64,000 nucleotides of DNA from positions 124,001-188,000 of the forward strand of contig NZ_FNBZ01000009.1 in the NCBI RefSeq assembly GCF_900102525.1, read 5' to 3'. The stretch comes from Allobosea robiniae (lineage in GTDB: Bacteria > Pseudomonadota > Alphaproteobacteria > Rhizobiales > Beijerinckiaceae). The translations under genes were made by a program, and so were the position numbers. The notes beneath the pieces were generated by a model, which worked only from the letters and a program-made list of their open reading frames with translations, had not been told where the DNA came from and ran no database searches. Shown in pieces: positions 11,527 to 44,010 of this stretch; position 1 is the stretch's first letter; each line of letters starts with the position of its first letter.

Positions 11527-11549
11527 ACGCCTCTCGCCTGAAAGAAACG

Positions 11550-11584
11550 CGCCGTCATTCCGGGTCAAGCCCGGAATGACGGCG
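11550..11584. terminator. Strong inverted repeat between convergent operons
   Basis: Fifteen-base arms CGCCGTCATTCCGGG (11550-11564) and CCCGGAATGACGGCG (11570-11584) around the loop TCAAG. It lies between the plus-strand transporter operon and the minus-strand MFS gene, so it can act for both directions, although a clear T-run is lacking. The left arm is repeated at 43914, showing that it belongs to a dispersed extragenic family. Confidence 0.6.
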
Positions 11585-11643
11585 TAAAATCGGGACGATC
11601 CAAACCCGAAACAAAGGCGGCCGGAGCGGCGGCCTTCGCGACA

Positions 11644-14853: not shown

Positions 14854-14855
14854 GA

Positions 14856-16699: not shown

Positions 16700-16733
16700 G
16701 GCGATGCCTCCGGTTGGAGAAGTCGAGGACCGC

Positions 16734-18302: not shown

Positions 18303-18327
18303 GCCGTCCCTCCATTGTTATCGTGTT

Positions 18328-19071
18328 TCAAGGACTGCCGGTCACCGAAACGACCTGGCCTGTGATGAAGTCCGCATAGTCGGAAGCAAGGAACATCACC
18401 GTGTAGGCAATGTCCTGCGGTGTCCCCGGACGGCGTCGTGCCGTGTTGGCGATCATGTTTTCCTGCCGCTCGGCCGAGTATGATTGCCATTGCCGCTCAT
18501 AGTCCGGGCTCGTGCGCTGGAACCCGGGAGCAACCGCGTTGACCGTGATCCCGAATGGCCCGAGCTCCTGCCCGAGCTGGCGCGCCAGCCCGATCTCGCC
18601 AGCCTTGGCGGAGGCGTAAGCCTGGATGCCCGTCAGCGAGGTGCGCAAGCCCGCACCGCTGGCGATCAGGACGATCCGCCCCTTGCCGCGGGCCTTCATG
18701 CCGGGGCAAACCGCCTGGGACGACAGGAAGGCGCCGGTCAGATTGACGTCGAGCACGGCGCGCCAGTCAGCCTCTTCGACGTCCTCGAGCGGCTTCGCGC
18801 TTTGCCCGAGAACCCCGCCGGCCACATAGACAAGGACGTCAGGCGCTCGCCCGCTGATCCTCTCGGCCTCCGCAACCCATCCCTTGACCGCCGCCTTGTC
18901 GAGCAGGTCGAGCTGCGTCGGGTGCGCAGGCAGGCCAGCCATCTCTTCCTTGAGCCGGTCGGCCGCGAAAACCTGGGCGCCCCTCGCTGCGAATTCCTCG
19001 ACGATGCCGCGGCCGATCCCGCGGGCAGCGCCGGCCACGAGCACCGTCTGATTGGCGAACTCGATATTCAC
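18328..19071 (-). CDS. SDR-family NAD(P)-dependent oxidoreductase
   Basis: 247 aa classical short-chain dehydrogenase: cofactor motif AGAARGIGRG near residue 14-23, the IASGAG serine and the YASAK catalytic pair (Tyr and Lys) in the usual order. The ATG overlaps the HyuB stop (ATGA). It is followed by the binding-protein gene after 25 bases. Probably oxidises or reduces an alcohol/ketone intermediate of the pathway; substrate unknown. Confidence 0.88.
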   Translation of the reverse strand: MNIEFANQTVLVAGAARGIGRGIVEEFAARGAQVFAADRLKEEMAGLPAHPTQLDLLDKAAVKGWVAEAERISGRAPDVLVYVAGGVLGQSAKPLEDVEEADWRAVLDVNLTGAFLSSQAVCPGMKARGKGRIVLIASGAGLRTSLTGIQAYASAKAGEIGLARQLGQELGPFGITVNAVAPGFQRTSPDYERQWQSYSAERQENMIANTARRRPGTPQDIAYTVMFLASDYADFITGQVVSVTGSP

Positions 19072-21056: not shown

Positions 21057-23101
21057 CAGATCGCACTCCGCTTCAAGATCAGATTGCCGAAGCCATCGAC
21101 ATGGCCCTCGAAACCGGGCGGAGCCCAGGTCGTCGTATCGTCCTGCAGGATCACGGCCGGACCGGCGAAGGACGAGCCCGGGGACAGGTCGTTGCGATCG
21201 AAGAGGCCGGCCTCGACGATGGAGCCCTGATGGGCGATCGGGATCAGCTTCCTAGGCTGGACCTGTTGCTGCGTCACGCGCTGTTCCGCGAAGTGAGGCT
21301 TGGGCGTGACGCCAGCAATGACGACACGGATTGCAACGATCTGCACATCCGCCGCATCGTCCGAATGGTCGTAGATTTCGGAGTGGCGCTTGTGGAAGGC
21401 AGCGGCGATGGCGCCATGATCGCCATCGACGACCCAGGACTGCTCCAGGGGCGTCTCGATCTCGTAGGACTGGCCGCGGTAGCGCATGTCTGCCGTGATC
21501 GACAGCGCGGCCTCGCCTGCATAGCCCTGGCCTTCGAACAGCCAGGCGCGCGCTTCCTTGGTGAGGTCGTCCATCGCCCGACGCAAGCCGTCGGCTGAGC
21601 TCGGGCCGACATCGAGGAAGACGACGCGCACGAAGTCCGATCGCAGATCGGCCAGAAGGCCTCCCAGCGCGGCCAGAACACCGGGAGTCTGGGGGATGAT
21701 GACCGACTGCATCCCCATGGCATCGGCCAGCAGGCAGCCGAGCATCGGACCAGCACCGCCGAAGGCCAGCAGCGTGTAGCCGCTCGGCTCTTCGCCAACC
21801 TGGGAGAACAGCCGGCTCGTTTCGCGATACATGTTGGCGACGGCCAGCTGGATGATGGCTTCGGCGGCGAGCTCCGACGAGCGGTCGAGGCCCCTGGCGA
21901 TCGGCTCAAGTGCAGCAAGTGCCTGGGAGCGGTCGACATTGACGGCTCCGTATCCGAGCCCGCCGGCCCCCAGAACGCCGATCGTCGCGAAGGCGTCGGT
22001 GATCGTCGCTCGTTCGCCGCCTCGGCCGTAACAGGCCGGCCCCGGCGTCGAGCCGGCGCTTTCGGGCCCGACGCGCAGCACCCCCAACGCGTCCACCGAC
22101 GCAATCGAGCCCCCGCCGGCGCCGATCGAAGACACCGAGACCGTCGGAAGATAGATCGGATACGCCCCGACGAGCTCGCCGGAGCGGAAGTCGGGCATAC
22201 CGTCCTTCAGGAGGGCGACGTCGGCGCTCGTGCCGCCGATGTCGAGGCTCATGACCCTCGAGAAGCCGGCCAGCTTGGCCGTGAAGCCTGCGCCGATCAC
22301 GCCGGCAGCCGTGCCGGATAGCAGCATCTCGATGCTGCGCACCTTGCCGGCCGCTGCGGTCATGACGCCGCCGTTCGACTTGGTGATCATCGGAGCCGGA
22401 ACGACGCCCCGCTCGATCAGGGCGTCCTCGAGGCGGCCGATATAATGGGACACACGCGGCTGTACCGAGCCATGGATACAGGCTGTGATGGTCCGCTCGT
22501 ACTCCCTGACGATCGGCCAGACGTCTGCGGAGCAGAAAACCGGCAGGTCGGGGCGCAGGCGATTGATCTCCGCTTTGACCGATCGCTCGTGAGCCGGGTT
22601 CTTGTAGCTGTGAAGCAAGGCGATGACGATCGCTTCGGCGCCTCTTGCTTCTGCCTGCTCAAGCGCCGCGGCGATCGCTGCCGGATCCGGAACGATTTCC
22701 GCTACGCCATCGGCGTTGATGCGTTCCAGCAAGGGAACCACCCGGTCTCGCGGAACGAGCGGAACCGGCCGGCGCGAGAACAGGTCGTAGGGATCGGGTA
22801 TCTTGAGGCGAGCCAATTCGAGCACGTCACGGAAACCTGCGGTGACGATGAGCCCGAGCTTGGCGCCCTTGCCCTGGATGATGCTGTTCACGCCGACAGT
22901 CGAGCCGTGGGTGAAGTAGCTGACCTGCGAAGGCGCGATGCCGAAGCGCTTCTCGATCTCGTCCAGCCCCTGAAGCACCTCGGCTCCAGGAGCATCGGGA
23001 CGAGACAGAACCTTGAGTGTCCGCAGATTCAGCGTCGCCTCGTCCAGCACGCTGAAATCGGTGAAGGTGCCGCCGATATCGACGCCGATGCGATAGCCCA
23101 T
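21056..23101 (-). CDS. hyuA: Hydantoinase A / oxoprolinase family protein
   Basis: 681 aa. The N-terminus YRIGVDIGGTFTDF is the hydantoinase A nucleotide-binding motif, followed by THGSTVGVNSIIQ and later SLDIGGTSADVALL, giving the two-lobe ASKHA-type ATPase. It works with HyuB to open a ring amide at the cost of ATP in characterised members. It is separated by three bases from the upstream deacetylase-like gene. Length is usual for HyuA. Confidence 0.92.
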   Translation of the reverse strand: MGYRIGVDIGGTFTDFSVLDEATLNLRTLKVLSRPDAPGAEVLQGLDEIEKRFGIAPSQVSYFTHGSTVGVNSIIQGKGAKLGLIVTAGFRDVLELARLKIPDPYDLFSRRPVPLVPRDRVVPLLERINADGVAEIVPDPAAIAAALEQAEARGAEAIVIALLHSYKNPAHERSVKAEINRLRPDLPVFCSADVWPIVREYERTITACIHGSVQPRVSHYIGRLEDALIERGVVPAPMITKSNGGVMTAAAGKVRSIEMLLSGTAAGVIGAGFTAKLAGFSRVMSLDIGGTSADVALLKDGMPDFRSGELVGAYPIYLPTVSVSSIGAGGGSIASVDALGVLRVGPESAGSTPGPACYGRGGERATITDAFATIGVLGAGGLGYGAVNVDRSQALAALEPIARGLDRSSELAAEAIIQLAVANMYRETSRLFSQVGEEPSGYTLLAFGGAGPMLGCLLADAMGMQSVIIPQTPGVLAALGGLLADLRSDFVRVVFLDVGPSSADGLRRAMDDLTKEARAWLFEGQGYAGEAALSITADMRYRGQSYEIETPLEQSWVVDGDHGAIAAAFHKRHSEIYDHSDDAADVQIVAIRVVIAGVTPKPHFAEQRVTQQQVQPRKLIPIAHQGSIVEAGLFDRNDLSPGSSFAGPAVILQDDTTTWAPPGFEGHVDGFGNLILKRSAI

Positions 23102-23104
23102 CGC

Positions 23105-24049
23105 TCAGCTCCGGCTGCTGTCGACTGACGGGGCCCGCGCGCTAAGGCCCGCTTCGGAGGCGCAATACCGGCAGATCTCCTCATGCGTGGCGAACCAGAC
23201 GGAGCCCTTCGCCTTCGCCGCCCTGATCACCTCGTCCAGAATGAAGATCCGCGAGCGGTGCCCGGTGATGTGCGGATGCATCGTCAGCTGGAAGAGACCG
23301 CCTTCCTCCGCGGCGACGTCCAGCTCCCGCAGGAAGATATCGAGCACCATCGGAGGGCCGCTGTGAGGCCTCAGCCCCTTGAAGCGATCCATGCCGAAAT
23401 AAACGGCATCGTCGCGGATCCACTCGACAGGCAGCTCGACGATTCCGGTCGGCTGCCCCTCGTCGAGAAGCTCGTAGGGCTCGTCGTCCGCCATCAGGGA
23501 GGAATCGTAAAGCAACCCCATTTCGCGCACGATCTTCAACGTCCACGGGCTGAAATCCCATGATGCGGTGCGCATCCCTTTCGGCTCGCGCCCGGTCAGC
23601 TTCGTCAAGGTGTCGCGGGCACGAAGCGCCAGATCGCGCTCGGTGTCGTAGTCGAGAACCGAGTTCAGCTCGTGGATCCAGCTATGGATCGCGACCTCGT
23701 GCCCGGCATCCGCAACCGAACGCGCCTCCCGGTCATGCAGAAGCGCCGCAACGGCCGGCATGAAGAAGCTGGCTGGGACGGAATGCCGGGCGAGCGTCGC
23801 CAGGATGCGCGGAATGCCCGATCGATTGCCGTATTGCCCCTGGCTGAGCTTCGAGTAGGAGCGCCCGCCCTCCCGGAGCTCGTTCGTCTCGTGATCAGAG
23901 TCGAAGGACAGGGCGACTGCGAAGCGGGCGCCATCCTTCCAGACTCCAGGCTTGAGCGAACGCCCCGCCCGGACATGACTGACGACCTGTCGCCAGGTCT
24001 CCTCACTCCATGTCCAAGGCTTGGTATCAGGGGGGAGCGTGACGTTCAT
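23105..24049 (-). CDS. NodB-fold polysaccharide-deacetylase-family hydrolase, probable cyclic imide/allantoinase-type
   Basis: 314 aa. The metal-binding NodB motifs are present: SFDSDHE (Asp and His) and HSWIHE (two His). Length and the ELREGGRSYSKLSQGQYG segment fit the PuuE/PgdA-like branch, which contains allantoinases and cyclic imidases rather than only sugar deacetylases. There is no signal peptide, so it is cytoplasmic, against a role on cell-wall polymers. I take the ATG at 24049; a GTG at 24058, directly after the upstream stop, is possible. Lying next to HyuAB it may open or process a cyclic amide in the same pathway. Confidence 0.82.
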   Translation of the reverse strand: MNVTLPPDTKPWTWSEETWRQVVSHVRAGRSLKPGVWKDGARFAVALSFDSDHETNELREGGRSYSKLSQGQYGNRSGIPRILATLARHSVPASFFMPAVAALLHDREARSVADAGHEVAIHSWIHELNSVLDYDTERDLALRARDTLTKLTGREPKGMRTASWDFSPWTLKIVREMGLLYDSSLMADDEPYELLDEGQPTGIVELPVEWIRDDAVYFGMDRFKGLRPHSGPPMVLDIFLRELDVAAEEGGLFQLTMHPHITGHRSRIFILDEVIRAAKAKGSVWFATHEEICRYCASEAGLSARAPSVDSSRS

Positions 24050-24058
24050 GGGGATCAC

Positions 24059-24820
24059 TCAGCGATTGAACTGGAACCCGTCCACCACGATGTCTTGGCC
24101 CGTGATGAAGCAGGGGGTCGAAGTTGCGAGGAACGTGACGAGCTCAGCCACATCGTCGGGCTTGCCCATTCGCTTCAGAGCGATGCCGGCATCGGCGATC
24201 GCGGGGCCGCGAGCCCGGGTCAGCGTGTTGCCGACTTCCGTCTCGATGATGCCCGGGCACACGGCATTGATCAGGATCTCGGGGCCGAGTTCCTTGGCGA
24301 GAGCCCGGGTCATCCCGATGATCCCCGCCTTTGCGGCAGCGTAGGCGAACCGGCTGACGGCAGCCGTCACGCCACCCGAATGCGCGTTCAGCGACGACAT
24401 CGAGACGATGCGGCCATGACCCTGACGCTGCATGATGGGCGCGACAGCCTGGATGTAATTGAAGCAGCTCTTCAGATTGAGAGCGATCGTGTGGTCGAAC
24501 TCGGCTTCGGTGATCTCGAAGATGCCCTTCGGCATCCCCTTCCCGGCATTGTTCACAAGGACGTCGACGCGCCCCCATTGGCCGGCGACTTCCGTGACAA
24601 TACGGCTCGCCTCTTCTTTGAAGATGACGTCCGATTGGAAAGTCAACGCGCGGCGCCCAAGCGCTTTTATCTCTTCAGCAGTGCGAGACAGCTCGTCAGA
24701 CAGCAGATCAACGAGCGCAATATCCAGCCCCGCTTTTGCAAGAGACAGAGCGCAAGCGCGTCCGATACCTCGCGCGCCACCCGTGACAATCGCCACGGAC
24801 GCAGCGTTGCTTGAAATCAT
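24059..24820 (-). CDS. SDR-family NAD(P)-dependent oxidoreductase, first gene of the HyuAB operon
   Basis: 253 aa. Cofactor motif TGGARGIGRA, structural NNAG, the SMSSLNAHSGG serine segment and catalytic YAAAK are all visible. The start at 24820 (MISSNAAS) follows GAAAGAGGG; the frame is open for 75 bases more but this would run into the palindromes at 24829-24864. It is the first gene of the minus-strand operon, divergent from the IclR regulator. Ends two to ten bases from the next start. Confidence 0.9.
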   Translation of the reverse strand: MISSNAASVAIVTGGARGIGRACALSLAKAGLDIALVDLLSDELSRTAEEIKALGRRALTFQSDVIFKEEASRIVTEVAGQWGRVDVLVNNAGKGMPKGIFEITEAEFDHTIALNLKSCFNYIQAVAPIMQRQGHGRIVSMSSLNAHSGGVTAAVSRFAYAAAKAGIIGMTRALAKELGPEILINAVCPGIIETEVGNTLTRARGPAIADAGIALKRMGKPDDVAELVTFLATSTPCFITGQDIVVDGFQFNR

Positions 24821-24828
24821 GGCATGCC

Positions 24829-24864
24829 CTCTTTCAAGAGTGTTGATTTCCTCTTGATTAAGAG
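24829..24864. promoter_or_regulatory. Two tandem palindromes in the SDR/IclR divergent promoter
   Basis: CTCTTTCAAGAG (24829-24840) and CTCTTGATTAAGAG (24851-24864) share CTCTT/AAGAG arms with two- and four-base spacers. They lie between the SDR start (24820) and the IclR start (24916). A repeated palindrome next to a divergently transcribed regulator is the usual sign of its operator, here inferred for the IclR protein. Confidence 0.55.
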
Positions 24865-24915
24865 TGAGCCTATCGCCGGCAAATTGGTTCGCCAAGAGAG
24901 ATTCGGTTCACGTCC

Positions 24916-25734
24916 ATGAACACTGAGGTCAAATCCGCAGCCCGTGTGCTGGACCTGCTGGAGTATCTCGCCGGCTGCTCGGAGCCCGTGAAGCTCAAGG
25001 AGATCGTCGCCGCGCTGGGATTTCCGAAGAGCAGCGCTCATGCGCTGGCGCAGACCCTGGTCTCACGCGGGTATGCGATTCAGGACGCAACCGAGCGCTA
25101 CGTGCTCGTCCATGCGAGTCGGCATCAATCGGCATCGCGGGCCCTCGAAGCCCGTCTGCTGTCGGCTGCCCATCCGATCATGGAACAGCTTCGCGACGAA
25201 ACAGGTGAGACCGTCATGCTGGCGGTTTTGACCGTGCGCGGCGATTGCCGACGAATCGCCAAATGCGTGAGCCGGCAAGCTGTGCGCTACGATATCGAAC
25301 TGGATGGCCTGTCCGATTCCTATTGCTCGGCAACCGGCCGCGTCCTGCTTGCGCACTGGGACCCGGCTCTCACTGACGGGTACTTTGCGAGAGCGCATCT
25401 CGTACCCAGGACACCCAAGACGATCACCGACCCCGGCACGATACGGGGAATGTTCGAGACGATCCGCGCGGAAGGCATCGCCGTCAGCGACGAGGAGCAC
25501 GTCACTGGCTCCACAGGACTTGCCGCGCCGATCTGGGGGAGAGAGGGCAAGGTGATAGCCGCTCTCAACCTTGGTGTTGTGACGCTGCGATACCATGCCC
25601 GCGCGAACGAGCTTGCAGAGCTTCTCAGGAATGGCGCGCGTCGTATAAGCGAACGGCTCGGCCACAAAAGCAGCCCGAATCCGGCCATCCTAGCGACAGT
25701 ACCGAGGCCGCCGCGAGCCTTGAGCGACGGTTAG
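24916..25734 (+). CDS. IclR-family transcriptional regulator
   Basis: 272 aa. An N-terminal winged helix-turn-helix (KEIVAALGFPKSSAHALAQT, about residues 32-51) is followed by the IclR effector domain, with ETVMLAVL and ATGRVLLAH motifs and a late TGSTGLAAPIWG segment. Divergent from the eleven-gene HyuAB operon, which it probably controls through the palindromes at 24829-24864. The effector is likely the substrate or an intermediate of that pathway; sign of control unknown. Confidence 0.9.
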   Translation: MNTEVKSAARVLDLLEYLAGCSEPVKLKEIVAALGFPKSSAHALAQTLVSRGYAIQDATERYVLVHASRHQSASRALEARLLSAAHPIMEQLRDETGETVMLAVLTVRGDCRRIAKCVSRQAVRYDIELDGLSDSYCSATGRVLLAHWDPALTDGYFARAHLVPRTPKTITDPGTIRGMFETIRAEGIAVSDEEHVTGSTGLAAPIWGREGKVIAALNLGVVTLRYHARANELAELLRNGARRISERLGHKSSPNPAILATVPRPPRALSDG

Positions 25735-27567: not shown

Positions 27568-27605
27568 GGATGCCGCTCCCGCTCGCGGTTCAGCCAAGCC
27601 CGATA

Positions 27606-27631
27606 TTGGCCATTTCATGATATAAAGCCAA
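27606..27631. promoter_or_regulatory. 26-bp inverted repeat upstream of gntR, probable operator
   Basis: TTGGC (27606-27610) and GCCAA (27627-27631) frame an AT-rich centre; the right half reads ATAAAGCCAA. The same ends, right half and total length occur at 28677-28702 before the aconitase gene. It precedes the GntR gene by about 40 bases, which fits autoregulation. Confidence 0.6.
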
Positions 27632-27672
27632 ATATACGCCAGAGCGCCCCCGCGCGATTTGCCATCGCCGCC

Positions 27673-28626
27673 ATGACCTGCGATCACTCCCGCGTTTCAA
27701 TGGCGCCGGACATGCCCCATAGCCCTCTCGCTCTTCGCATCGCCAACGACATCATCGCGCGCATCGGTATGGGCGAATTCGGCACGGGCTCGCATCTGGC
27801 GACGGAGGTGCTGGCGAAGCACTTCGAGGTCTCGCGTTCGCCGGTGCGCGAGGCGCTGGCCATCCTCTGCGACCGGGGCGTCATCGAAAACCGCCGGAAC
27901 CGCGGCTTCTTCGTGCTGCCGGCCGCGGGGCGAACAGCCGGAGAGACGGGGCTGGAGCCTGTCGGCCCTTGCGAAAGCGATCCCTATTACGAACTGGCGG
28001 AAGACTGGCTCAAGGACCGGATCGGCGCCGACCAGACCGAGCAGGCTATCCGGGATCGCTACAGCCTGACGCGCGCGCAGGCGCAGGACCTCCTGTCTCG
28101 CGCCTCTCGCGAAGGCTGGGCCGAGCCGAAGCCCGGCTATGGCTGGAAATTGCGCCAGGTCGCCAAGACGGTCGAGGCCTTCGAGGAAATCTACCGTTTT
28201 CGCGCGGTCATCGAACCTGCCGCCCTGCTCGAGCCGAGCTTCCGGTTCGACCGTACGGTCGCCGCAGCCCTGCGCCGGACGCAGGAGCGGCTGGCATCGG
28301 GCGACCTCGGCGGGCTGGCGCCTGCGGCGATGACGGCGGCCGGCGCCGCGTTCCATGAGGGCATCATCAGGATGTCCGGCAATCCAATGTTCTTCTACGC
28401 GCTGGAGCGTGCCAACCAGTTGCGGCGGCTGGCGGAATACCGGCTCAAGGTGAACCCGCAGCGCATTGCCGTGCAGAGCCGCGAGCATCTGGAGATGCTC
28501 GACCTCCTCGCCAGGGGCGACAATCTGGAGGCGGCCCATCTGATGCGCCGGCATCTCAGCGGGGCGCTCGCCTCCAAATCGCCGGTCGTGCATCCGCGCT
28601 CCAGCGACCCAGGGCGCACGGCCTAG
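27673..28626 (+). CDS. GntR-family regulator with two winged-helix segments and an FCD domain
   Basis: Up to 317 aa. The N-terminal GntR helix-turn-helix has FEVSRSPVREALAIL. A second winged-helix-like segment (residues about 115-155, SLTRAQAQDLLSRASREG, ending EPKPGYGWKL) precedes an FCD-type helical domain (EEIYRFRAVIEPAALLEP). This layout is shared with the regulator at 32164-33078. Start uncertain: ATGs at 27673, 27700 and 27712 lack a clear ribosome site; the longest is used. Inverted repeats at 27606 and 28677 suggest that it controls itself and the aconitase. Confidence 0.85.
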   Translation: MTCDHSRVSMAPDMPHSPLALRIANDIIARIGMGEFGTGSHLATEVLAKHFEVSRSPVREALAILCDRGVIENRRNRGFFVLPAAGRTAGETGLEPVGPCESDPYYELAEDWLKDRIGADQTEQAIRDRYSLTRAQAQDLLSRASREGWAEPKPGYGWKLRQVAKTVEAFEEIYRFRAVIEPAALLEPSFRFDRTVAAALRRTQERLASGDLGGLAPAAMTAAGAAFHEGIIRMSGNPMFFYALERANQLRRLAEYRLKVNPQRIAVQSREHLEMLDLLARGDNLEAAHLMRRHLSGALASKSPVVHPRSSDPGRTA

Positions 28627-28676
28627 CTCCACAGACAAGTCCAACGGCACTCCAGGGAAAATCCGTCACGCCAACA

Positions 28677-28702
28677 TTGGTTTTATAGATTGATAAAGCC
28701 AA
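28677..28702. promoter_or_regulatory. 26-bp inverted repeat upstream of the aconitase gene, probable operator
   Basis: TTGGTTTTAT (28677-28686) and ATAAAGCCAA (28693-28702) are inverse at nine of ten positions around six bases. The repeat has the same length and outer halves as the one at 27606-27631. It overlaps a possible TTG start at 28690, an argument for the later start used for the aconitase. Confidence 0.6.
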
Positions 28703-28788
28703 TCAATATCATTAGGCTCCCGCCATGGCGTTCCGGTCTTCCTTCGACCCGGCATTTCAATAAGGCGGGCTCAGGCCCGAACGAGATC

Positions 28789-31413
28789 GTGACGTTGAAC
28801 GACAAGGCCCGGTGGACGGGTTTCGAAGCGGCGGGCGAACAGTTCTACCGCCTCGATGTCGCGTCGTTGCTGGGTGCGGATTTCCGGTGCCTGCCGCACG
28901 TGCTGCGGATTCTGTTCGAGAATGCGATGCGCTCGGCCCCCGCTGAAGAGACGGCGCATCTGCCTCAGGCCTTTCGTGACTGGCTCGCTCAGGGTTCAAG
29001 TCTCGTCGAGATTCCGTTCCTCCCGAACCGGATCATGATGCATGACACGACCTGCGGCCCGGCGCTGGTCGATATTGCGGCGATGCGCGACGTGCTCGCC
29101 GAGAACGGTCGCGATCCCGACCTGCTGATGCCGCGTATTCCCGTCGACGTCTCGACGGACCATTCCTCCGGCGTCGATGTCTTCGCCCGGCCCGATGCCT
29201 TCCAGCGGAACCTGGAGAAGGAATTCGCGCGCAATGCCGAGCGCTATCGCCTGATGAAATGGGCGGCGGCGGCCATGCCGGGCGTCCGGGTGCACCCGCC
29301 GGGATCGGGTATCATGCACACGATCAATCTGGAGCGGCTTTCCAGAGTGATCGTCAGCGAGACGCATCGGGGCGAGCGTCGGGCCTTCCCGGATGCCCTG
29401 CTCGGGACCGACAGCCATACGCCGACCGTCAACGGGCTCGGCGTGCTCGGCTGGGGCGTCGGCGGGCTGGAGGCGGAAGGCGCATTGTTCGGCGTGCCTG
29501 TCGTGCTGCGCATTCCCAACGTGATCGGTGTGAAGCTCACGGGCCGGTTGCGCGACGGCGTGCTCGCGACCGACCTTGCGCTGGAAGTGACCCGTGCGCT
29601 GCGCGCCATCGGCGTCACCGGCGATTTCGTCGAGTTCTTCGGGCCGGGCGTGCGGAGCTTGTCGGTCGGCGAACGCGCCGCGATCGCCAACATGGCGCCG
29701 GAATACGGGGCATCGACCGGGTATTTCCCGATTGATGACAAAGCGCTGGCCTATCTCGCGCGGATCGGCCGGCCGCCTGAAGACTGCGCGCTGGTCGAGG
29801 CCTATGCCAGGGCGAGCGGGCTCTGGTTCGATGCCGAGGCCGAGCCGCGTTTCACGCAGACCACCGCCATCGATCTCAACGCGATCGAAGCCAGCGTCGC
29901 CGGGCCGCGGCGCCCGCAGGATCGGCTCACCGCCGGCTCGACCCGTTCAGCCTTCACCCCGGCTCTGCGTCCCGCGCGTAAAGGCGCTTTGCCCGATGGG
30001 GCGGTCGTGATCGCCGCGATCACGAGCTGCACCAACACATCCGATGCGAGCATGCTCGCGGCTGCGGGCATTCTCGCCGGCAAGGCCCGCGCGCGCGGGT
30101 TGTTGCCGCCGGCCCATGTCAAGACCTCGCTGGCGCCGGGATCGCCCACGGCGGAACGGTTCCTGCGTCGCGCCGGCCTGCTCGACGATCTCGAAGGGCT
30201 CGGCTTCGGCATCGTCGGCTATGGCTGCACGACCTGCATCGGCAATTCCGGAGCCTTGCTCGATGTCGTCAGGAACGAGCTGGGCCGCGAGGGCTTCCGC
30301 CCGGTCGCGGTCCTGTCCGGCAACCGCAATTTCCCGGGTCGTGTCCATCCCGATCTCGAGAACGGCTTTCTGGCCTCGCCCCCGCTGGTCATCGCCTTCG
30401 CGCTCGCCGGCACCGTCAACATCGACATCGCGCGGGAGCCGCTCGGCTTCGACCGGGCCGGCGAGCCCGTGATGCTCGGCGAGATCTGGCCGACCGGCGC
30501 CGAGATCGACGAGGCCGTCGCCTCCGGCTGGGATATGGCCGATTTCGACGCGGCCTATCAGGAGGCCGCGACCCGGCCGCTCTGGATCGATCTCGATGCG
30601 CCGAGTGGACCGCAATTCCCGTGGAACCCCGCCTCGACCTATCTGCGCAAGCCGCCCTTCGTCCGCCCGCAAGGGTTGCCTGCGGCGGAAGGGCATGCCC
30701 GGCCGCTGATCGTGCTGGGCGACGACGTCACCACCGACCATATTTCGCCGGCAAACCAGATCCGCCCGGACAGCCCCGCCGGGCAACACATCATCGCCGG
30801 CGGTGGCGATCCCGCCGATCTCAACGTCTTCGCCTCGCGGCGCGGCAATTTCGAGGTGATGGTCCGGGGCGCATTTACCAACCGGATGGCGGTCAACCGC
30901 CTGCTGCCGGCGGATGCACCGGCCGGCTTCACGCGGCACGAGCCGTCCGGGGAGATCGTGCCGCTGACCGAAGCGGCCGAGCGTTATGCAAGCGAGAGCA
31001 CCCCGCTCGTCCTTGTGGCGGGCGAGCGCTACGGCATGGGCTCCTCGCGGGACTGGGCTGCGAAGGCCGTGGCGCTGCTCGGCGTTCGCGCCGTGATCGC
31101 TGCGAGCATCGAGCGCATCCACCGCACCAACCTGATCGGGATGGGCATCCTGCCGCTCTTGCTGCCCGAAGGCGTCGATCCGGGCACCCTCGCCATCGGT
31201 TCGGCCGATCTTTTTGCGGTCGATCTTCGCCCGGATCACCTGATGCCACGATGCACGGTCCCGCTGACGCTCATTCGCCCCTCCGGCGAAACCGTCGCAA
31301 TCGCCCTGCGGGCCGCGATCGAGACCTCGCTCGAGATCACTCTCCTGAAATCGGGCGGGCTGATCCCGCATGTTCTCGGCGGTCTTTTGGAGGATGCCGG
31401 ATCGCGGATCTGA
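28789..31413 (+). CDS. acnA: AcnA-type aconitate hydratase family protein
   Basis: About 874 aa from a GTG at 28789 (a longer TTG start at 28690 lies in an operator-like repeat). The three iron-sulfur cysteines are Cys414 (SCTNTSD), Cys480 and Cys483 (GYGCTTCIGNSG); their spacing of 66 and 3 equals that of E. coli AcnA (435, 501, 504). The GSSRDWAAK motif and DSHTPTVNGLG are also present. It interconverts a tricarboxylate via dehydration/hydration, citrate/isocitrate in the best-known members. Its regulator-linked location beside a hydroxyacid dehydrogenase suggests a dedicated catabolic paralogue and not the housekeeping TCA enzyme. Confidence 0.9.
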   Translation: MTLNDKARWTGFEAAGEQFYRLDVASLLGADFRCLPHVLRILFENAMRSAPAEETAHLPQAFRDWLAQGSSLVEIPFLPNRIMMHDTTCGPALVDIAAMRDVLAENGRDPDLLMPRIPVDVSTDHSSGVDVFARPDAFQRNLEKEFARNAERYRLMKWAAAAMPGVRVHPPGSGIMHTINLERLSRVIVSETHRGERRAFPDALLGTDSHTPTVNGLGVLGWGVGGLEAEGALFGVPVVLRIPNVIGVKLTGRLRDGVLATDLALEVTRALRAIGVTGDFVEFFGPGVRSLSVGERAAIANMAPEYGASTGYFPIDDKALAYLARIGRPPEDCALVEAYARASGLWFDAEAEPRFTQTTAIDLNAIEASVAGPRRPQDRLTAGSTRSAFTPALRPARKGALPDGAVVIAAITSCTNTSDASMLAAAGILAGKARARGLLPPAHVKTSLAPGSPTAERFLRRAGLLDDLEGLGFGIVGYGCTTCIGNSGALLDVVRNELGREGFRPVAVLSGNRNFPGRVHPDLENGFLASPPLVIAFALAGTVNIDIAREPLGFDRAGEPVMLGEIWPTGAEIDEAVASGWDMADFDAAYQEAATRPLWIDLDAPSGPQFPWNPASTYLRKPPFVRPQGLPAAEGHARPLIVLGDDVTTDHISPANQIRPDSPAGQHIIAGGGDPADLNVFASRRGNFEVMVRGAFTNRMAVNRLLPADAPAGFTRHEPSGEIVPLTEAAERYASESTPLVLVAGERYGMGSSRDWAAKAVALLGVRAVIAASIERIHRTNLIGMGILPLLLPEGVDPGTLAIGSADLFAVDLRPDHLMPRCTVPLTLIRPSGETVAIALRAAIETSLEITLLKSGGLIPHVLGGLLEDAGSRI

Positions 31414-32131: not shown

Positions 32132-32167
32132 CCTCGAGCGAACCCATGTTCGCCGGAAATGCTCTAG
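32132..32167. repeat. Partial extragenic palindromic repeat, copy 3
   Basis: Read on the minus strand it starts TAGAGCATTTCC, then GGCGAACATGGGTTCGCTCG, resembling the left half of the elements at 5302 and 7977 (AGCATTTTCGAGCG, GGTTCGC). Its CTAG end supplies the stop codon of the GntR gene at 32164. Confidence 0.4.
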
Positions 32168-33078
32168 GAGGCGGCCGGACTGAACCTCCGGGACGTCGAT
32201 TCCCATGCGATCCGCAGATGGGCTCGCATCAGATCCGAAGCCTCGTCGAGACGACCCCGTTCGATCGCATCCAGGATCGCCATATGCTCGGTGAAGTTCT
32301 TCTCAACGCGCACACGCCCGCTTCTCCAATTGTACATCGCGAACCGGCGCAGTCTGCTCTGGAGGCGAGCGGCTTCTCGATAGAAGCGATTTCCGGAAGC
32401 GGCTGCGAGATCCTCATGGAAAGCGGCATTCGTCTCGAACAGCGCCACGCTCATGTCTTCCGTCCAGGCCTTCTTGAGAAAGATCTCATGCGCGGCGCGC
32501 GTGTCGTCGAGCCACTTGCGAGACACGCTGAAGCCGGGCTCCAGCAAGGCCGCGGGCTCGATCACCATCCTGAACCGATAGCTTTCATCGACGATGGTCA
32601 GGTTCCAGTCCGTCAGGAAGCGCCAGCCATAGCCCGGCTTCTTTTCGATCATGCCGAGCCCCGCCAGACGTTCCAGGATCGGAACGAGGGCGGCCCGGGC
32701 GACGCCGTATCGCTCAGCCAGTTCGACGACGGAAAACTCGTCGCCCAGCTCCTGCCGATCCCTCTCGGTCGCGATCCGGAGAACCAGCGCCTCCTCCCGG
32801 GCGGCTGAAGGGGCCAGCTCGCGGGTCTCGATTCCGATGCCGCCGTCATCGGGCAGGTTGACCAGCACAACGCCGGTGCCCGGGCGCCGCAGCACCACGC
32901 CATCGTCCTGGAGAAGCGCGAGAGCCGTCCTGATCGGCGTGCGGGACACCCCCAGCCGCAAGGCGATCTGCTGCTCGTTGATGCGGTCGCCGGGACGCAA
33001 CCCTTCGTGCCGGACGAATTCGAGAATCCGGTCGATCAGCCTGCGCTGCAGATTGGTCAGGGCGCGATCTGTGTTCAT
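32164..33078 (-). CDS. GntR-family regulator with two winged-helix segments and an FCD domain
   Basis: 304 aa. The first helix-turn-helix contains LGVSRTPIRTALALL; a second winged-helix segment (about residues 110-150, FSVVELAERYGVARAALVPI, ending KKPGYGWRF) precedes the FCD-like helices (VDESYRFRMVIEPAALLEP and NAAFHEDLAAASG). The start at 33078 (MNTDRA) gives a normal N-terminus; the frame is open 720 bases further, antisense to the C45 gene, which is rejected. It is divergent from the C45 enzyme at 33154, as the partial GntR gene at 1-162 is from the C45 gene at 246. Confidence 0.88.
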   Translation of the reverse strand: MNTDRALTNLQRRLIDRILEFVRHEGLRPGDRINEQQIALRLGVSRTPIRTALALLQDDGVVLRRPGTGVVLVNLPDDGGIGIETRELAPSAAREEALVLRIATERDRQELGDEFSVVELAERYGVARAALVPILERLAGLGMIEKKPGYGWRFLTDWNLTIVDESYRFRMVIEPAALLEPGFSVSRKWLDDTRAAHEIFLKKAWTEDMSVALFETNAAFHEDLAAASGNRFYREAARLQSRLRRFAMYNWRSGRVRVEKNFTEHMAILDAIERGRLDEASDLMRAHLRIAWESTSRRFSPAAS

Positions 33079-33085
33079 TTGATTC

Positions 33086-33100
33086 CAGAAAAACATTCTG
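33086..33100. promoter_or_regulatory. Inverted repeat in the gntR/C45 divergent promoter
   Basis: CAGAA (33086-33090) and TTCTG (33096-33100) flank five bases, between the divergent starts at 33078 and 33154. A likely operator for the adjacent GntR protein, by position and symmetry only. Confidence 0.4.
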
Positions 33101-33153
33101 TTACATGACTGTCGACGACCACTAGTGCAATCGCACCGGCGAAGGAATCGAAC

Positions 33154-34293
33154 ATGGCTGCTCCCGTTGAATGCCCGACGATCGAGGTTTCCGGTGCGCC
33201 GCGCGAGCAGGGTCGCCAGTACGGTGAGCAGGCCGCCGCCCGCATCAGGCTGGGCGTGCAGCATTATACCGATCAGATCCGCAAGAAGAACGTCAGCCAG
33301 GCGGTCATCGAGGAGACCGCGCTCGGCTTCGAAAGCCAGGTGGCGGCTTTCGACGCGAATTATGTCGAGGAGATGCACGGGATCGCTGAAGGCGCCGGTG
33401 TGAATTTCGCCTCCGTCATGTTGCTGAACGCCAGGACGGAACTGCTCAAGCTCGCTGGCAGGACCGAGGCAAGCCGCGAGCTTCATGATGAGTGCACCGG
33501 TCTGGTTGTGCTGCCCAAGGCCTCCAAGGAGGGCGCCTTGATTCACGCCCAGAACTGGGACTGGAAGACGGAGTGCGTCGACACGGCCGTTGTCCTGAAA
33601 ATCAGGAATGAGGATGGGCCGGACATCATCACCTTCACGGAAGCCGGCGTGCTCGCGCGCTTCGGGTTCAACACCGCCGGCATCAGCATTACCGGCAACT
33701 ATCTCGAATGCGAACGCGACTACCGTCGTCTCGGCGTTCCGCTGGCACTGATCCGCAGGAAGGTTCTCGAGCAGGACCTGCTCGGCCGGGCGATGCACGC
33801 AGTCTATACGACGCCCAAATCGGCCTCAAACAACATCATCGTGACGCAGAGCGAGGGAATCGCGATCGATTTCGAATGCGTGCCGGACGAGACCTTCATG
33901 ATCCAGCCGCAGGATGGCCTGATCGTGCACGCCAATCACTTCCAGAGCCCCATCGCCCTGTCGAAGCTGACCGATACCGGCATCGCCAACATGCCGGATT
34001 CGCTCTATCGCGACACCCGCGTGCGCGAAAGCCTGGAGCCGCATGTCGGGCAGATCACGGTCGATCACGTCAAGATGGCGCTGTTCGACGATTATCAGTC
34101 GCCCTGGTCGGTCTGCCGGCCGCCGCGTCCCAGCTTCTCCGGCAACAATCAGTCCGTGACCGTGGCGATGATCGTCATGCAGCCGGCGAAGGCGATCATG
34201 GACGTGGCCCTGCTCCCCGCGCTCCATCGCAATTTCACGCGCTACAACCTCGCGCCCAAGGACGTGGCGGGCAGCACCCGGTCGGCGGCCTGA
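33154..34293 (+). CDS. C45-family autoproteolytic acyltransferase/amidohydrolase (second paralogue)
   Basis: 379 aa, paralogue of the gene at 246: shared EQGRQYG/ERGRQHG, the nucleophile region ECTGLVVLP, HAQNWDWKTEC, FGFNTAGISITGNYLE and the IRRKVLEQ block. Candidate nucleophile is Cys114, here preceded by Glu and not Gly. The ATG follows GAAGGA. It is the first gene of a short operon with binding protein D, divergent from the GntR gene. Predicted cytoplasmic amide/acyl-transfer enzyme; substrate unknown. Confidence 0.86.
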   Translation: MAAPVECPTIEVSGAPREQGRQYGEQAAARIRLGVQHYTDQIRKKNVSQAVIEETALGFESQVAAFDANYVEEMHGIAEGAGVNFASVMLLNARTELLKLAGRTEASRELHDECTGLVVLPKASKEGALIHAQNWDWKTECVDTAVVLKIRNEDGPDIITFTEAGVLARFGFNTAGISITGNYLECERDYRRLGVPLALIRRKVLEQDLLGRAMHAVYTTPKSASNNIIVTQSEGIAIDFECVPDETFMIQPQDGLIVHANHFQSPIALSKLTDTGIANMPDSLYRDTRVRESLEPHVGQITVDHVKMALFDDYQSPWSVCRPPRPSFSGNNQSVTVAMIVMQPAKAIMDVALLPALHRNFTRYNLAPKDVAGSTRSAA

Positions 34294-34439
34294 GCATCGC
34301 GCGGCTCCGGCTTCCCCTTGCATCCCGAACGTGCAGGGCGGCCCGGATTCCCCCTTTGCATCGGATCGTTCCCGAAAGCGCAGGCCGTTTTTCGATCCGT
34401 TGCTCCAGCGAATCTGAATCAAAAACAATGAGGGGCGTC

Positions 34440-35984
34440 ATGAAGAAGCTTGTCATCGTCCTGGGCCTGCTGGGTGCTGCGCTTCCCGCGGCAGCTCAAC
34501 AGCCGGCGCTGCGGATTCGGCTGGGCGCCGATGCGCGCACGCTCGATCCCGGTACCAATCGCGACGCGATCACCGATGCCATCCAGACCAACCTGTTCGA
34601 AGGGCTGGTCGCCTTCAGGGACGACAGCTCGGTCGGGCCGGTGCTCGCGAAATCCGTCGCCGTCTCGGAGGACGGCAAGACCTACACCTTCGTGCTGCGC
34701 GACGGCGTCAAGTTCAGCAACGGCGCACCCCTGACGACCAAGGACGTCCTCTTCGCCTGGCAGCGCTATACCGACCCGAAGACCGGCTGGCGTTGCCTGA
34801 GCGAGGTCGACGGACGCGGCGCGGTCAAAGTCACGGGCGTCACGGCACCGGACGACAGAACGGTCGTCTTCACGCTGGAAAAACCCTCGGCGCTGTTCCT
34901 CGCCACCCTGGCCCGGCCCGATTGCGGCGGGACAGGCATCTTCCATTCGAGTTCGCTCAACCCGGACGGAAGCTGGCGCGAGCCAGTGACGACCGGGCCC
35001 TACAAGCTCGGCGAGTGGAAGCGCGGCCAGTTCATCCGCCTCCTCGCCAACGAGCATTATACGGCCGGCCCCGGCCCGCGGGACGGCCTCACCGGCGACA
35101 AGACCCCTCTCGTCGCGCAGGTCGACTATCTCGTCATCCCCGACGAGGCCACGGCGAAGGCTGCACTGCTGTCGAACGGGATCGACATCAACTGGGACAT
35201 CGCCACGAGCGATCTCCAGGAATACCGCTCGCGCAAGGACATCGTCATCGAAAGCGTCCCGACGATGAGCATCAGCGACCTTCTGATCCAGACGAAGGAC
35301 CCGTTGCTGTCGGACGTCCGGATGCGCCAGGCGATCCTTCTCTCGCTGGACCTGGAAACCATCGCCGACGAGGTGACCGGTTCGCAATCCAGGGCGAGCC
35401 ATTCGCCGATCCCGCGCTCGAGCGCCTATCACAAGGCAAAGCAGGCCGCTCCGATCCGCCGGGATATCCCGGCGGCGAAAAAGCTGCTGATGGAGGCAGG
35501 ATATCGCGGGCAGGCCATCAAGCTGCTGGCGAACAAGCGCTATCCGGAGATGTTCGACCAGGCGATCCTCGTCCAGGCGATGGCCAGGGAAGCGGGCATC
35601 AATATCGAGGTCGAAGTCGTCGACTGGGGCGTCCAGCAGGATCGCTACCTGGCCGGCAACTACCAGATGATGTCGCACTCCTTCTCCGCGCGCCTCGACC
35701 CGTCGCTGTCCTTCGAGATGTTCACCGGCGAAAAGGCCACCCAGCCCCGCAAGGCCTGGGACAGCAAGGCGGCGGCGGATCTCGTCACGCGCAGCATGGC
35801 GATCGCCGATCCGGCGCAGCGCCAGGCGATCTTCGACAAGCTCGAGGACATGTACCGCGCGGACATTCCGATGATCACGCTGTTCTCCGGCACGCGCCTC
35901 AGCGCCTCCAGGAGCAATATCGAAGGTTACAGGAGCTGGGCACTCGGCACGCCCCGCCCTTGGGGCATATCGATCAAGCAGTAA
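34440..35984 (+). CDS. ABC transporter substrate-binding protein, family 5 (paralogue D, orphan)
   Basis: 514 aa with Sec signal (MKKLVIVLGLLGAALPAAAQ) after AGGGG. It shares the YTFVLRDGVKFSNGAPL block, WRCLSEVDGRG and RPDCGG with paralogues A-C, closest in those segments to A. The frame is open upstream through the C45 gene but the signal peptide fixes the start. No permease or ATPase gene follows; instead there is an ATPase-tail-like remnant (36011-36097) and a terminator. It may feed the transporter at 8055-11526. Confidence 0.9.
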   Translation: MKKLVIVLGLLGAALPAAAQQPALRIRLGADARTLDPGTNRDAITDAIQTNLFEGLVAFRDDSSVGPVLAKSVAVSEDGKTYTFVLRDGVKFSNGAPLTTKDVLFAWQRYTDPKTGWRCLSEVDGRGAVKVTGVTAPDDRTVVFTLEKPSALFLATLARPDCGGTGIFHSSSLNPDGSWREPVTTGPYKLGEWKRGQFIRLLANEHYTAGPGPRDGLTGDKTPLVAQVDYLVIPDEATAKAALLSNGIDINWDIATSDLQEYRSRKDIVIESVPTMSISDLLIQTKDPLLSDVRMRQAILLSLDLETIADEVTGSQSRASHSPIPRSSAYHKAKQAAPIRRDIPAAKKLLMEAGYRGQAIKLLANKRYPEMFDQAILVQAMAREAGINIEVEVVDWGVQQDRYLAGNYQMMSHSFSARLDPSLSFEMFTGEKATQPRKAWDSKAAADLVTRSMAIADPAQRQAIFDKLEDMYRADIPMITLFSGTRLSASRSNIEGYRSWALGTPRPWGISIKQ

Positions 35985-36010
35985 GGCTCGCAGCCTCGTC
36001 ATGCAGGATG

Positions 36011-36097
36011 GCCGCCCCGGGTCTCGAAGCCACATCGGAAGGCGGTGTCAGATTGTTCTGGAGGAGAGCCGAAAACGACAAGGAAATCGCCTACTGA
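36011..36097 (+). pseudogene. Remnant resembling the C-terminal end of the fused ABC ATPase gene
   Basis: By hand alignment, 73 of 87 bases match 11440-11526, including a 30-base block without mismatch and the stop codon at the same place. Translated, it reads PGLEATSEGGVRLFWRRAEN then DKEIAY, against DQEIVG in the intact gene. There is no start or nucleotide-binding domain upstream, since the preceding bases are the 3' end of binding protein D. It may mark a deletion in a once complete transporter operon, or a dispersed sequence that also forms the ATPase tail. Confidence 0.55.
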
Positions 36098-36194: not shown

Positions 36195-37388
36195 TCAGCG
36201 CTTGCGCTTGGCGCCGACCAGTTCGTCCCACTTGCGGAAGGCGACGACCATCTTGTCGGGCTTCAGCGGCAGTTCGATCGGGTTATTGGCGATGAGATCG
36301 GCATATTCGGGCCGGCCGAACTCCGCGATCACCTCCTGGCTGCGCTGCGGCGCGAGCGACAGCGGCACATTCTTCACCGCCGGGCCGGGGTAGAGATAGC
36401 CCTCGTCATAGGAATAGGCCTGCATCTTCGGCGTCAGCACATGCGCCATGATGTCGAGCACGACGGCGAGCCGGTCGTTCGGGATGCCCTTCGGCACGCA
36501 CATGAAGAAGGCGTCCGAGACCCAGTGGAAGCCCTTCAGCGTCTGGATCTTCGCTTCCTTCGGCACGATGCCGAGCGCGCGCGGATTGATGTCCCAGCCC
36601 GTGGTCGAGATGATGATGTCGCGCGAGCCGTCGCCGAACTCCTTCATCGTGGCGCCGGTGCCGGCCGGATAATACTCGATATATTCGCCGATCGCCTGCA
36701 GATAGGCCCAGGTCTTGTCCCAGCCATTGACCGGGTCCTGCGGGTCCTTGTCGCCGAGGAGATAGGGCAGGCCCATCATGAAGGTACGGCCCGGCCCCGA
36801 ATTGGTCGGACGGGCGTACATGAACTTGTTGGGGTTGGCCTTGGCCCAGGCGAGCAGCTCCTCGGCGGTGGTCGGCACCTGCTTGACGCGCGCCGGCATG
36901 TATTCGAGCAACGGCCCGGACGGATAGTAGTTCACCACCGTGCCGAAGCCTGCGCCCTGCGCCTTGTGCAGGTTGAGCGCCGCCGGCTCGTAGTTCTGTT
37001 CGATATTGGGGAACTTCTCGGCGAAATCCGGGAAGATCTTGAGCCAGAGATTCTGCTCCAGGCCGGCCGCGAGCCCGTCCGAGCCGGTCAGGATGAGGTC
37101 GAGATCGGAGCGGCCCGCATCCTGCTGCGCCTTGATCTTGCTCGCCAGTTCCGGCGCCGGCGCCTTCACATAGGTGATGCGCGAGACCAGCTTCGGATTG
37201 TTCGTGCGATAGTCGTCGAAGGCCTGCTGCATCAGCGCCAGCGCGCCGCCGACATCGATGATGTTGATGCCGACCGGCGCGGAAGGCAGTGCCGGCACGG
37301 CGGCCAGCGCACTGCCTCCGCCCAGGGTCAGCGCGCTCAGCCCGCCCAGGACGGTGCGGCGATCCACGCCTTTCGGAAATTCGCTCAT
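36195..37388 (-). CDS. Extracellular solute-binding protein, family-1-like, Tat-exported (nag cluster, copy 1)
   Basis: 397 aa. The twin-arginine signal is DRRTVLGGLSALTLGGG ending around ALAAV. The mature part is a periplasmic-binding fold with the segments TNSGPGRTFMMGLPY and STTGWDINPRALGIVPKEAK, nearly repeated in the protein at 40644-41819. The start at 37388 (MSEFPKG) is chosen for the signal; the frame is open upstream. It follows nagA by 34 bases as the last gene of the minus-strand operon. No permease or ATPase gene is nearby. Confidence 0.85.
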   Translation of the reverse strand: MSEFPKGVDRRTVLGGLSALTLGGGSALAAVPALPSAPVGINIIDVGGALALMQQAFDDYRTNNPKLVSRITYVKAPAPELASKIKAQQDAGRSDLDLILTGSDGLAAGLEQNLWLKIFPDFAEKFPNIEQNYEPAALNLHKAQGAGFGTVVNYYPSGPLLEYMPARVKQVPTTAEELLAWAKANPNKFMYARPTNSGPGRTFMMGLPYLLGDKDPQDPVNGWDKTWAYLQAIGEYIEYYPAGTGATMKEFGDGSRDIIISTTGWDINPRALGIVPKEAKIQTLKGFHWVSDAFFMCVPKGIPNDRLAVVLDIMAHVLTPKMQAYSYDEGYLYPGPAVKNVPLSLAPQRSQEVIAEFGRPEYADLIANNPIELPLKPDKMVVAFRKWDELVGAKRKR

Positions 37389-37422
37389 GATTCTCCCCTT
37401 CTTGCTTTGGTTGGTGACGTCT

Positions 37423-38445
37423 TCAGGCGGCAAAATCGCGGCGCTCGCTGCCGATGCGAGCGCTGCGGACATGGAGTTCCGGCGACCAGTCGATCGCGCT
37501 CTCCGGCAAGCTGATGCCGGCCCCGGCCAATGCGCCGGCGATGCAGGCGAGCGCATGGGTCGAGGCCATCGCGACCGCTTCGTCGGGCGTCGCGATGCCC
37601 CAGGCGACGACGTTGCGGACGGCATCGTCGAGCTTCAGTGCCGAACCCGCCAGCGAGGTGCCCCCGGGCTGGCGCACCGAGCCGTCGGCGGCGAGATCGA
37701 CCGGCATGCCGGCGAAGCTGTAGCGGCCGGGCACCGCGCCCGCCGCGACCACGGCATCGGTGACGAGGATCGAACGTTCGAAGCCCTTGGCCCGGATCAG
37801 GCTCTTCAGCGCCTTCGGATGGATATGGATGCCGTCCGCGATGAAGCCGGCCATCAAACGATCCTCGGCGAGCTGCGCGAAGAGCGGATTGACCAGCTTG
37901 TGCATCTGCTGCGGCAGGCCGTTTCCGAGATGGGTCGAGAGCGTTGCTCCCGCGGCAGCGGCGGCCTCGACAGCCTCGAAATCGGCGGCCGAATGGCCGA
38001 TCGCGACGATCTTGCCCATCCCTGCCAGCTGGCCGGCGAGCGCGACGCCGCCCTCGACCTCCGGCGCCAGCGTCACCATCAGGATCGGCCGCGACAGCAA
38101 TGTTTCGAGATGTGCGACAAGGTCGGTGGTCGCCGCCGTCATCGCGTCGGGCGGATGGCAGCCGGCATAGCCGGCCGACGGGTTCAGGAACGGGCCTTCG
38201 AGATGATAGCCCGGGCACATCAGCGGTCCGAGCCTGCTTCCTGTCACGGCCGCGTCGAGCGCCCGGAAGCGCTGTTCCAGCTCATGCGGATGCGCCGTGA
38301 TGATCGTCGGCAGGCAGATCGTGACGCCCGTCGCCAGCATCGCCTCCAGCGCCCGGTCGAGCTCGGCCGCAGTGATCGTGCCGGAGTTGAAATCCACCCC
38401 GGCAAAGCCGTTCACCTGCAGGTCGACGAGGCCGGGCGTGCGCAT
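37423..38445 (-). CDS. nagA: N-acetylglucosamine-6-phosphate deacetylase-like amidohydrolase, short N-terminus
   Basis: 340 aa. It starts directly at the barrel motif GLVDLQVNGFAGVDFN, matching the QLNG form of E. coli NagA and not the HxH form. Metal and active-site residues follow: LEGPFLNP (Glu), GHSAADF (His), STHLGNGL (His), DGIHIHP (His) and VTDAVVAAG (catalytic Asp). The first about 50 residues of a usual NagA (small beta-domain strands) are missing; the frame is open upstream but that would overlap nagB almost entirely. Removes the acetyl group from an N-acetylated amino-sugar phosphate. Confidence 0.85.
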   Translation of the reverse strand: MRTPGLVDLQVNGFAGVDFNSGTITAAELDRALEAMLATGVTICLPTIITAHPHELEQRFRALDAAVTGSRLGPLMCPGYHLEGPFLNPSAGYAGCHPPDAMTAATTDLVAHLETLLSRPILMVTLAPEVEGGVALAGQLAGMGKIVAIGHSAADFEAVEAAAAAGATLSTHLGNGLPQQMHKLVNPLFAQLAEDRLMAGFIADGIHIHPKALKSLIRAKGFERSILVTDAVVAAGAVPGRYSFAGMPVDLAADGSVRQPGGTSLAGSALKLDDAVRNVVAWGIATPDEAVAMASTHALACIAGALAGAGISLPESAIDWSPELHVRSARIGSERRDFAA

Positions 38446-43913: not shown

Positions 43914-44010
43914 CGCCGTCATTCCGGGCTTGACCCGGAGCCTATCGCAGAGCGCAGAGCCTTGTGATGGATTCCGGATCGGCGCCGCTTCGCGGCTTGT
44001 CCGCAATGAC
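43914..44010. repeat. Extragenic repeat between the Gfo/Idh and kinase genes
   Basis: Opens CGCCGTCATTCCGGG, the same 15 bases as the left arm at 11550, and closes GTCCGCAATGAC, so GTCATT and AATGAC are inverse ends. This 97-base element explains most of the 178-base gap before the kinase; no gene is seen in it. Confidence 0.5.

Follow-up and report, generated by a model that had tools for sequence, protein, structure and literature searches.

The window analysed here, meaning the whole stretch of 64,000 nucleotides taken from contig NZ_FNBZ01000009.1 of Allobosea robiniae (positions 124,001 to 188,000, forward strand), opens with an operon for a C45-family enzyme and an ATP-binding cassette (ABC) transporter, called operon 1 below, and carries at 32-36 kb a shorter cassette made up of a divergent GntR regulator (GntR2), a C45 enzyme (C45_2) and a family-5 binding protein (SBP2), with a scrap of ATPase gene directly behind it. 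Operon 1 and its downstream neighbour, joined directly in most close relatives, are separated here by a block of ~24.4 kb that begins at 11.53-11.66 kb and ends at 35,995, and the ATPase gene end occurs in two copies, an intact one on the left and, on the right, a truncated one with a 77-nucleotide deletion. It is very probable that DNA was inserted here and that the scrap is a duplicated end of the operon 1 ATPase gene, and probable that the reading holds as a whole, namely an insertion at the end of operon 1 together with a satellite cassette from another clade of C45 operons.

Junctions were compared in the genus with one anchor in the fused double ATPase gene that closes operon 1 (9865-11526, plus strand, with two ABC_tran stretches) and one in the downstream flank (36098-64000: a terminator, a minus-strand open-reading frame at 36195-37625 and the DNA beyond). 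The ATPase anchor was found in 48 of 67 genus genomes (in G031 through its C45_2-type operon), the flank anchor in 50 of the 67 at 86% or above, or 51 at threshold; the searches scored limited candidates per genome, and absences are not proof. Apart from this genome, 45 have both anchors, which stand 187-365 bp apart in 17 of them, compared to 24,750 bp here. In the remaining two-anchor genomes, the flank is elsewhere or on another contig, and adjacency cannot be judged where the anchors fall on different contigs, as in G065 with the flank at a contig start. When the comparison is limited to other genomes whose ATPase anchor reaches 87% or more, the ATPase gene and the flank are joined in 15 of 18. 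Direct reading of the junction in 11 fetched genomes with the operon 1 ATPase gave the ATPase gene, a short intergenic stretch, the terminator and then window sequence starting between 36,098 and 36,204 in eight (L129, L130, L131, L136, L140, L141, L142, and L143). Because ATPase and flank are joined in most close relatives, the window very probably carries inserted DNA. The block thus has two marks of a genomic island, as it is absent from the orthologous site of close relatives (17 joined directly) and is flanked by a direct repeat of a gene end (11440-11526 and 36011-36097).

The left-boundary zone lies at 11527-11664, where 11557-11627 resembles the intergenic DNA that follows operon 1 in some relatives. 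Six relatives were aligned locally with the DNA after the ATPase gene, reaching to 11627; two scored 52 and 54, one scored 31 and three scored 18-24, against a maximum of 28 for 200 shuffles of one relative. Base composition gave no help, with G+C at 0.636-0.673 over the six segments measured, flank included. A palindrome, CCGGGTCAAGCCCGG, stands after operon 1 at 11560-11574 and again at 43924-43938, and is present in 8 of 187 loci, as a small dispersed repeat.

The scrap consists of two collinear pieces, both on the plus strand, that together span about 179 nucleotides of the ATPase end with an internal deletion of 77. The first, 20 bases at 35996-36015 equal to 11348-11367 at 19 of 20 positions, had escaped the sequence-only reading made before this analysis; the second, copy B at 36011-36097, forms the right boundary of the insertion by its match to 11440-11526 (copy A), by the comparison of tails and by the junctions. 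The 73/87 match between the two copies, which had been reported earlier, was confirmed; seven of the 14 differences lie at third codon positions, and the codon changes are synonymous in six cases and non-synonymous in four. A 160-nucleotide query over the scrap matched only itself, operon 1 and the self-complementary arm of the terminator in its own genome. The 87 bases are thus not scattered through unrelated intergenic sites, a scattering that the sequence-only reading had named as damaging to its case, and with operon 1 as the one other genome site, a chance match or a dispersed repeat was ruled out as the identity of the scrap. Mis-assembly is an unlikely source of the doubled ATPase end, since the two tails differ by 16%.

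The encoded tails place the scrap with operon 1. The tail GGVRLFWRR.END..I.G is found in 11 loci of seven relatives (G023, G027, G028, G029, G035, G059, and G062) as well as in two loci of G001, and the scrap carries the same operon 1 tail (GGVRLFWRR.END..I..), while G005, G052, and G010 have GGVRLFWR with a different end after it. The full tail of the scrap type was present in none of the other-genus ATPases compared nor in the C45_2-type operon of G031; apart from the partly similar ends in Chelatococcus and Microvirga, these operons end otherwise. In a tree of ten tails, the two ATPase ends of the window are sisters with a support of 0.933, and six of the 87 sites are common to the scrap and its own tail and seen in none of eight relatives. 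The scrap and its own tail are 0.839 identical, whereas either one reaches at most 0.805 with any relative; the eight relatives' tails are 0.70-0.91 identical among themselves, with a mean of 0.79. The 87 bases had been taken for the ATPase end of a second operon; they instead carry the operon 1 tail of the nearest relatives, are sister to that of the window's own operon 1, and stand before the sequence that follows operon 1 in relatives.

The sequence-only reading had described the genes at 32-36 kb as a shortened duplicate of operon 1, and the features from which it started were borne out. Translation and Pfam/NCBIfam profiles gave the order GntR (minus), C45 (plus), family-5 SBP (plus) at 32164-35984, and the same order opens operon 1, whose GntR gene lies mostly upstream of the window (locus L144). 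C45_2 and the operon 1 enzyme C45_1 are paralogues at 53% amino acid identity, both far above the C45 cut-off. By that account operon 1 was duplicated, the copy lost its permeases and most of its ATPase gene in one internal deletion, and the 87 bases are what was left of the copy's ATPase, which would agree with a scrap that directly follows SBP2, collinear with the ATPase end. The trees point elsewhere. They were built after leaving out C45 hits below 330 amino acids, SBP hits below 380 amino acids or 250 bits, hits with internal stops and repeat loci, and held 112 of 118 C45 rows after removal of identical ones and 143 SBP rows. In the C45 tree, C45_1 falls in the clade of the genus, while C45_2 pairs with a protein of Bosea sp. 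BK604 (SH-aLRT 95) among those of Rhizobiaceae, Chelatococcus, Microvirga, Cupriavidus and others, with that of G031 nearby and not sister. In the SBP tree, SBP2 again pairs with BK604 (SH-aLRT 99), within a set of 34 rows (98) that excludes SBP1a-c, the binding proteins of operon 1. Within the genus, C45_2 relatives of at least 65% were otherwise present only in G024 and G031. By these trees operon 1 is not the parent of the cassette, as the copies are not each other's closest relatives in either, and the two enzymes and receptors fall in different clades, a result that the sequence-only reading had itself listed as counting against duplication. The BK604 sister cassette, moreover, lacks the scrap, and the scrap of the window has the tail and the flank of operon 1. 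Once the direct junction of operon 1 with the flank at 36.1 kb was seen in relatives, duplication with internal deletion was abandoned, and we consider it highly improbable.

The part of the earlier claim that did stand is the loss itself. When the best 80 of 150 stretches with C45_2 relatives were kept, 67 had an SBP, both permeases and an ATPase within 7 kb downstream, filling the gap behind SBP2 as a deletion in the cassette would predict; of the rest, one has an SBP without permeases (BK604), seven have none of these genes in at least 6 kb of room, and five have less than 6 kb of room. With 67 of 80 relatives complete, loss is the likelier direction, and the cassette is likelier to have come from a complete operon whose permeases and ATPase have since been lost, with operon 1 not being that source. 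Complete operons of the kind that the sequence-only reading had hoped to find in relatives were present in G031, G033, and G040, although where the ATPase end was read (G031), it is not the one of the scrap. The BK604 cassette is also without permeases and has no ATPase piece after its SBP, so the scrap in the window does not have to derive from an ATPase gene of the cassette. This bears on a second alternative, in which a circle carrying a complete C45_2-type operon integrated in the Campbell manner by recombination between its ATPase gene and that of operon 1, the permeases and most of the hybrid ATPase gene being deleted later. Such an event would account for a C45 cassette placed exactly beside a duplicated ATPase end, for a run of identical bases in the copies and for decay in two steps, but the C45_2-type ATPase of G031 has only ~58% protein identity to that of operon 1 and a different end, and with the permease-less BK604 cassette showing no such scrap, we regard it as unlikely. 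No donor was found: a plasmid collection held C45_2 relatives in 74 records, the best being 67% identical.

The inserted island is a composite, with two of its pieces present at other places in sister genomes. Module 1 (11665-25664) holds genes for an MFS transporter, a peptide-type ABC transporter, an SDR protein, hydantoinase A/B, a deacetylase, a second SDR protein and an IclR regulator by Pfam, and is a single collinear block of 14,000 bases, 87% identical, at another locus in G017, with nearly all of it also in G061. Module 2 (27605-31386, plus strand), a GntR regulator and an aconitase-family gene, matches other loci of G029, G059, G060, and G017 at 80-87%, with 0.3-5.7 kb separating the pair there. 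Pfam recognised no integrase, recombinase or other mobility gene in the 16 island frames before the cassette (one on the opposite strand), GntR2, C45_2 and SBP2, with some frames not scanned. This weakens a third alternative, in which the ATPase ends are the attachment repeats of an integrase-borne element that replaces the 3′ end of its target gene. Such an element would be expected to leave direct repeats at the 3′ end of a gene, as seen here at a distance of 24.6 kb, and the stretch of identical bases that they share, their synonymous-rich differences and the partial tails at two further sites in G001 also speak for it; the 20-base ATPase piece to the left of the repeat is not expected of an attachment site, and with no integrase or recombinase in the 16 scanned frames, we hold this explanation to be very unlikely.

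Two genomes of the genus have a different layout at these loci. In G024 (L176 and L004), the bare cassette precedes the same flank gene by ~16 kb and in the same orientation, although operon 1 lies on another contig. In G001 (L132, L133, L134, and L135), which by C45_1 is the closest genome, operon 1 is broken off near the beginning of permease 1; pieces of that beginning and the 3′ part of the ATPase gene lie elsewhere on the contig, at a distance of ~1.3 Mb, and of two isolated partial ATPase tails, one is still attached to the flank. No mobility gene was found in the ten frames beside the broken copies of G001.

Several observations weigh against the insertion and the foreign origin of the cassette. 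The direct junction is absent in G001, the nearest genome by C45_1, and in G010 and G052, and the left boundary is soft, with a good match in only two of six relatives and part of that match being the dispersed palindrome. A difference of 14 in 87 bases between the two ATPase ends is much for a recent duplication, yet these tails vary generally. The scrap starts directly after SBP2, as deletion in a second operon would also give, and ATPases of Chelatococcus and Microvirga, with GGVRLKWR or RWR, are partly similar to its tail. No mobility gene was recognised in the frames scanned. The trees were made by a quick method, C45_2 served as the query for collecting their rows from outside the genus, and C45_2 and SBP2 were flagged as long branches whose placement is unsure.

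The cassette genes appear to be maintained. C45_2 (33154-34293, plus strand), an autoproteolytic acyltransferase/hydrolase by profile and tree, scores 280.3 bits against the C45 profile NF040521, for which the curated cut-off is 85, and SBP2 (34440-35984, plus strand) scores 274 bits against PF00496. The complete layout of C45, SBP, two permeases and ATPase is not found in the cassette, as SBP2 is followed by the scrap, the terminator and the flank. Compared with Bosea sp. BK604, the non-synonymous and synonymous divergences (dN and dS) are 0.23 and 0.96 for C45_2 (ratio ~0.24) and 0.29 and 0.74 for SBP2 (ratio ~0.39), values that are rough at so high a dS, and both genes look to be kept by purifying selection. 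The closest solved structures to C45_2 are 2x1c, 2x1d, and 2x1e, entries for a fungal-type acyl-CoA:6-aminopenicillanic acid (6-APA) acyltransferase. Ahead of the nucleophile cysteine, which is kept, C45_2 has glutamate (HDECT), while 107 of the 112 tree rows read DGCT and two others SDECT; Gly-Cys is what we take to be the self-cleavage site of the C45 family, as in penicillin acyltransferase. The terminal branch of C45_2 in the C45 tree is long, at 0.51 versus 0.18 for BK604, and given this branch and the glutamate, self-cleavage of C45_2 may be altered. GntR2 (32164-33078, minus strand) has GntR and FCD domains and, between them, an apparent second winged-helix region at residues ~97-153 with weak MarR/Rrf2 matches; residues 111-289 align with a GntR-FCD model at a score below its cut-off.

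Operon 1, entirely on the plus strand, encodes C45_1 (246-1388; NF040521, 287 bits; up to 99% identity with genus orthologues), the family-5 binding proteins SBP1a (1433-2986) and SBP1b (3071-4612), both identified from repeat families, open frames and the tree, a third, SBP1c (6397-7938; repeat families, tree and profile search), and two permeases (8055-8999 and 8996-9868; open frames and tblastn against relatives' permeases), so that one permease-ATPase set stands beside three binding proteins. Because it already has three, operon 1 is the best candidate to supply the transporter that the cassette lacks. Of 15 extra C45-SBP sets listed in genomes with operon 1, 10 were examined (two each in G000 and G024 and one each in G001, G002, G007, G015, G027, and G054), and none was directly followed by permeases of this transporter family, whereas permeases follow the SBP in all four genus genomes with a C45 gene and no operon 1 ATPase (complete in G031, G033, and G040, whereas in G045 the contig stops behind the first permease). 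Borrowing is favoured since the extra sets are bare where operon 1 is present and have permeases where it is absent, and we lean, with somewhat better than even confidence, toward the cassette using the transporter of operon 1. This contrast is weaker than ten to four, as the ten sets are related and of about four kinds, and the third sets of G000, G001, and G027 have a distant SBP-permease set (38-46%) 1.8-1.9 kb on. SBP2 could alternatively be partnered with the island's own peptide-type ABC set (12870-18302). A third GntR-C45-SBP set, at L145 8834-11564 (G000:C19) with L184 and L185, is common to G000, G001, and G027 and has no directly adjoining permease of this family.

Recombination at the end of the ATPase gene or at the terminator would have brought the block into this lineage and duplicated ~180 nucleotides or more of that end, after which the right-hand copy of the ATPase end, being unconstrained, would have begun to decay. 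The genes for GntR2, C45_2 and SBP2 would be the last piece of the island, from a different operon clade, with permeases and ATPase lost beforehand or independently. Working most likely in a satellite mode, GntR2 would control C45_2 and SBP2, SBP2 would hand a ligand of amide or peptide-like nature to a transporter whose genes lie elsewhere, for which operon 1 is the best candidate, and C45_2 would then act on the imported compound.

Genomic islands flanked by a duplicated gene end are a known kind of element, and the block resembles them in bringing accessory metabolic genes to another gene's 3′ end with a direct repeat of that end; it differs in that no recombinase was found, the repeat is imperfect (73/87 plus the 77-nucleotide deletion) and an ABC ATPase gene serves as the target. 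In order and related proteins, the cassette is like the enzyme-transporter operons of Alpha- and Betaproteobacteria with C45 enzymes of the acyl-CoA:6-APA acyltransferase type, except that it and its Bosea sp. BK604 counterpart are without the permeases and ATPase that most of the best 80 have downstream. In Pseudomonas aeruginosa, several binding proteins, DppA1-A5, share a single peptide-type permease and ATPase set, DppBCDF (PMC4206461). Operon 1, with three binding proteins for one permease-ATPase set, is similar to this, whereas the extra receptor here is in a cassette of its own with a regulator and a C45 enzyme, and would be a putative case of sharing.

These comparisons suggest, as a tentative proposal to which we give a little less than even weight, that cassettes of regulator, C45 enzyme and receptor are a recurrent satellite form in the genus, bare in genomes that have the core C45 transporter operon and followed by permeases in those that lack it, so that one transporter would gain receptor-enzyme pairs by insertion. 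What appears to be the remnant of a deletion can be the scar of an insertion, visible only through the junctions in relatives, and the locus is a small system in which to test whether receptor-enzyme cassettes that lack transporter genes can plug into a core transporter.

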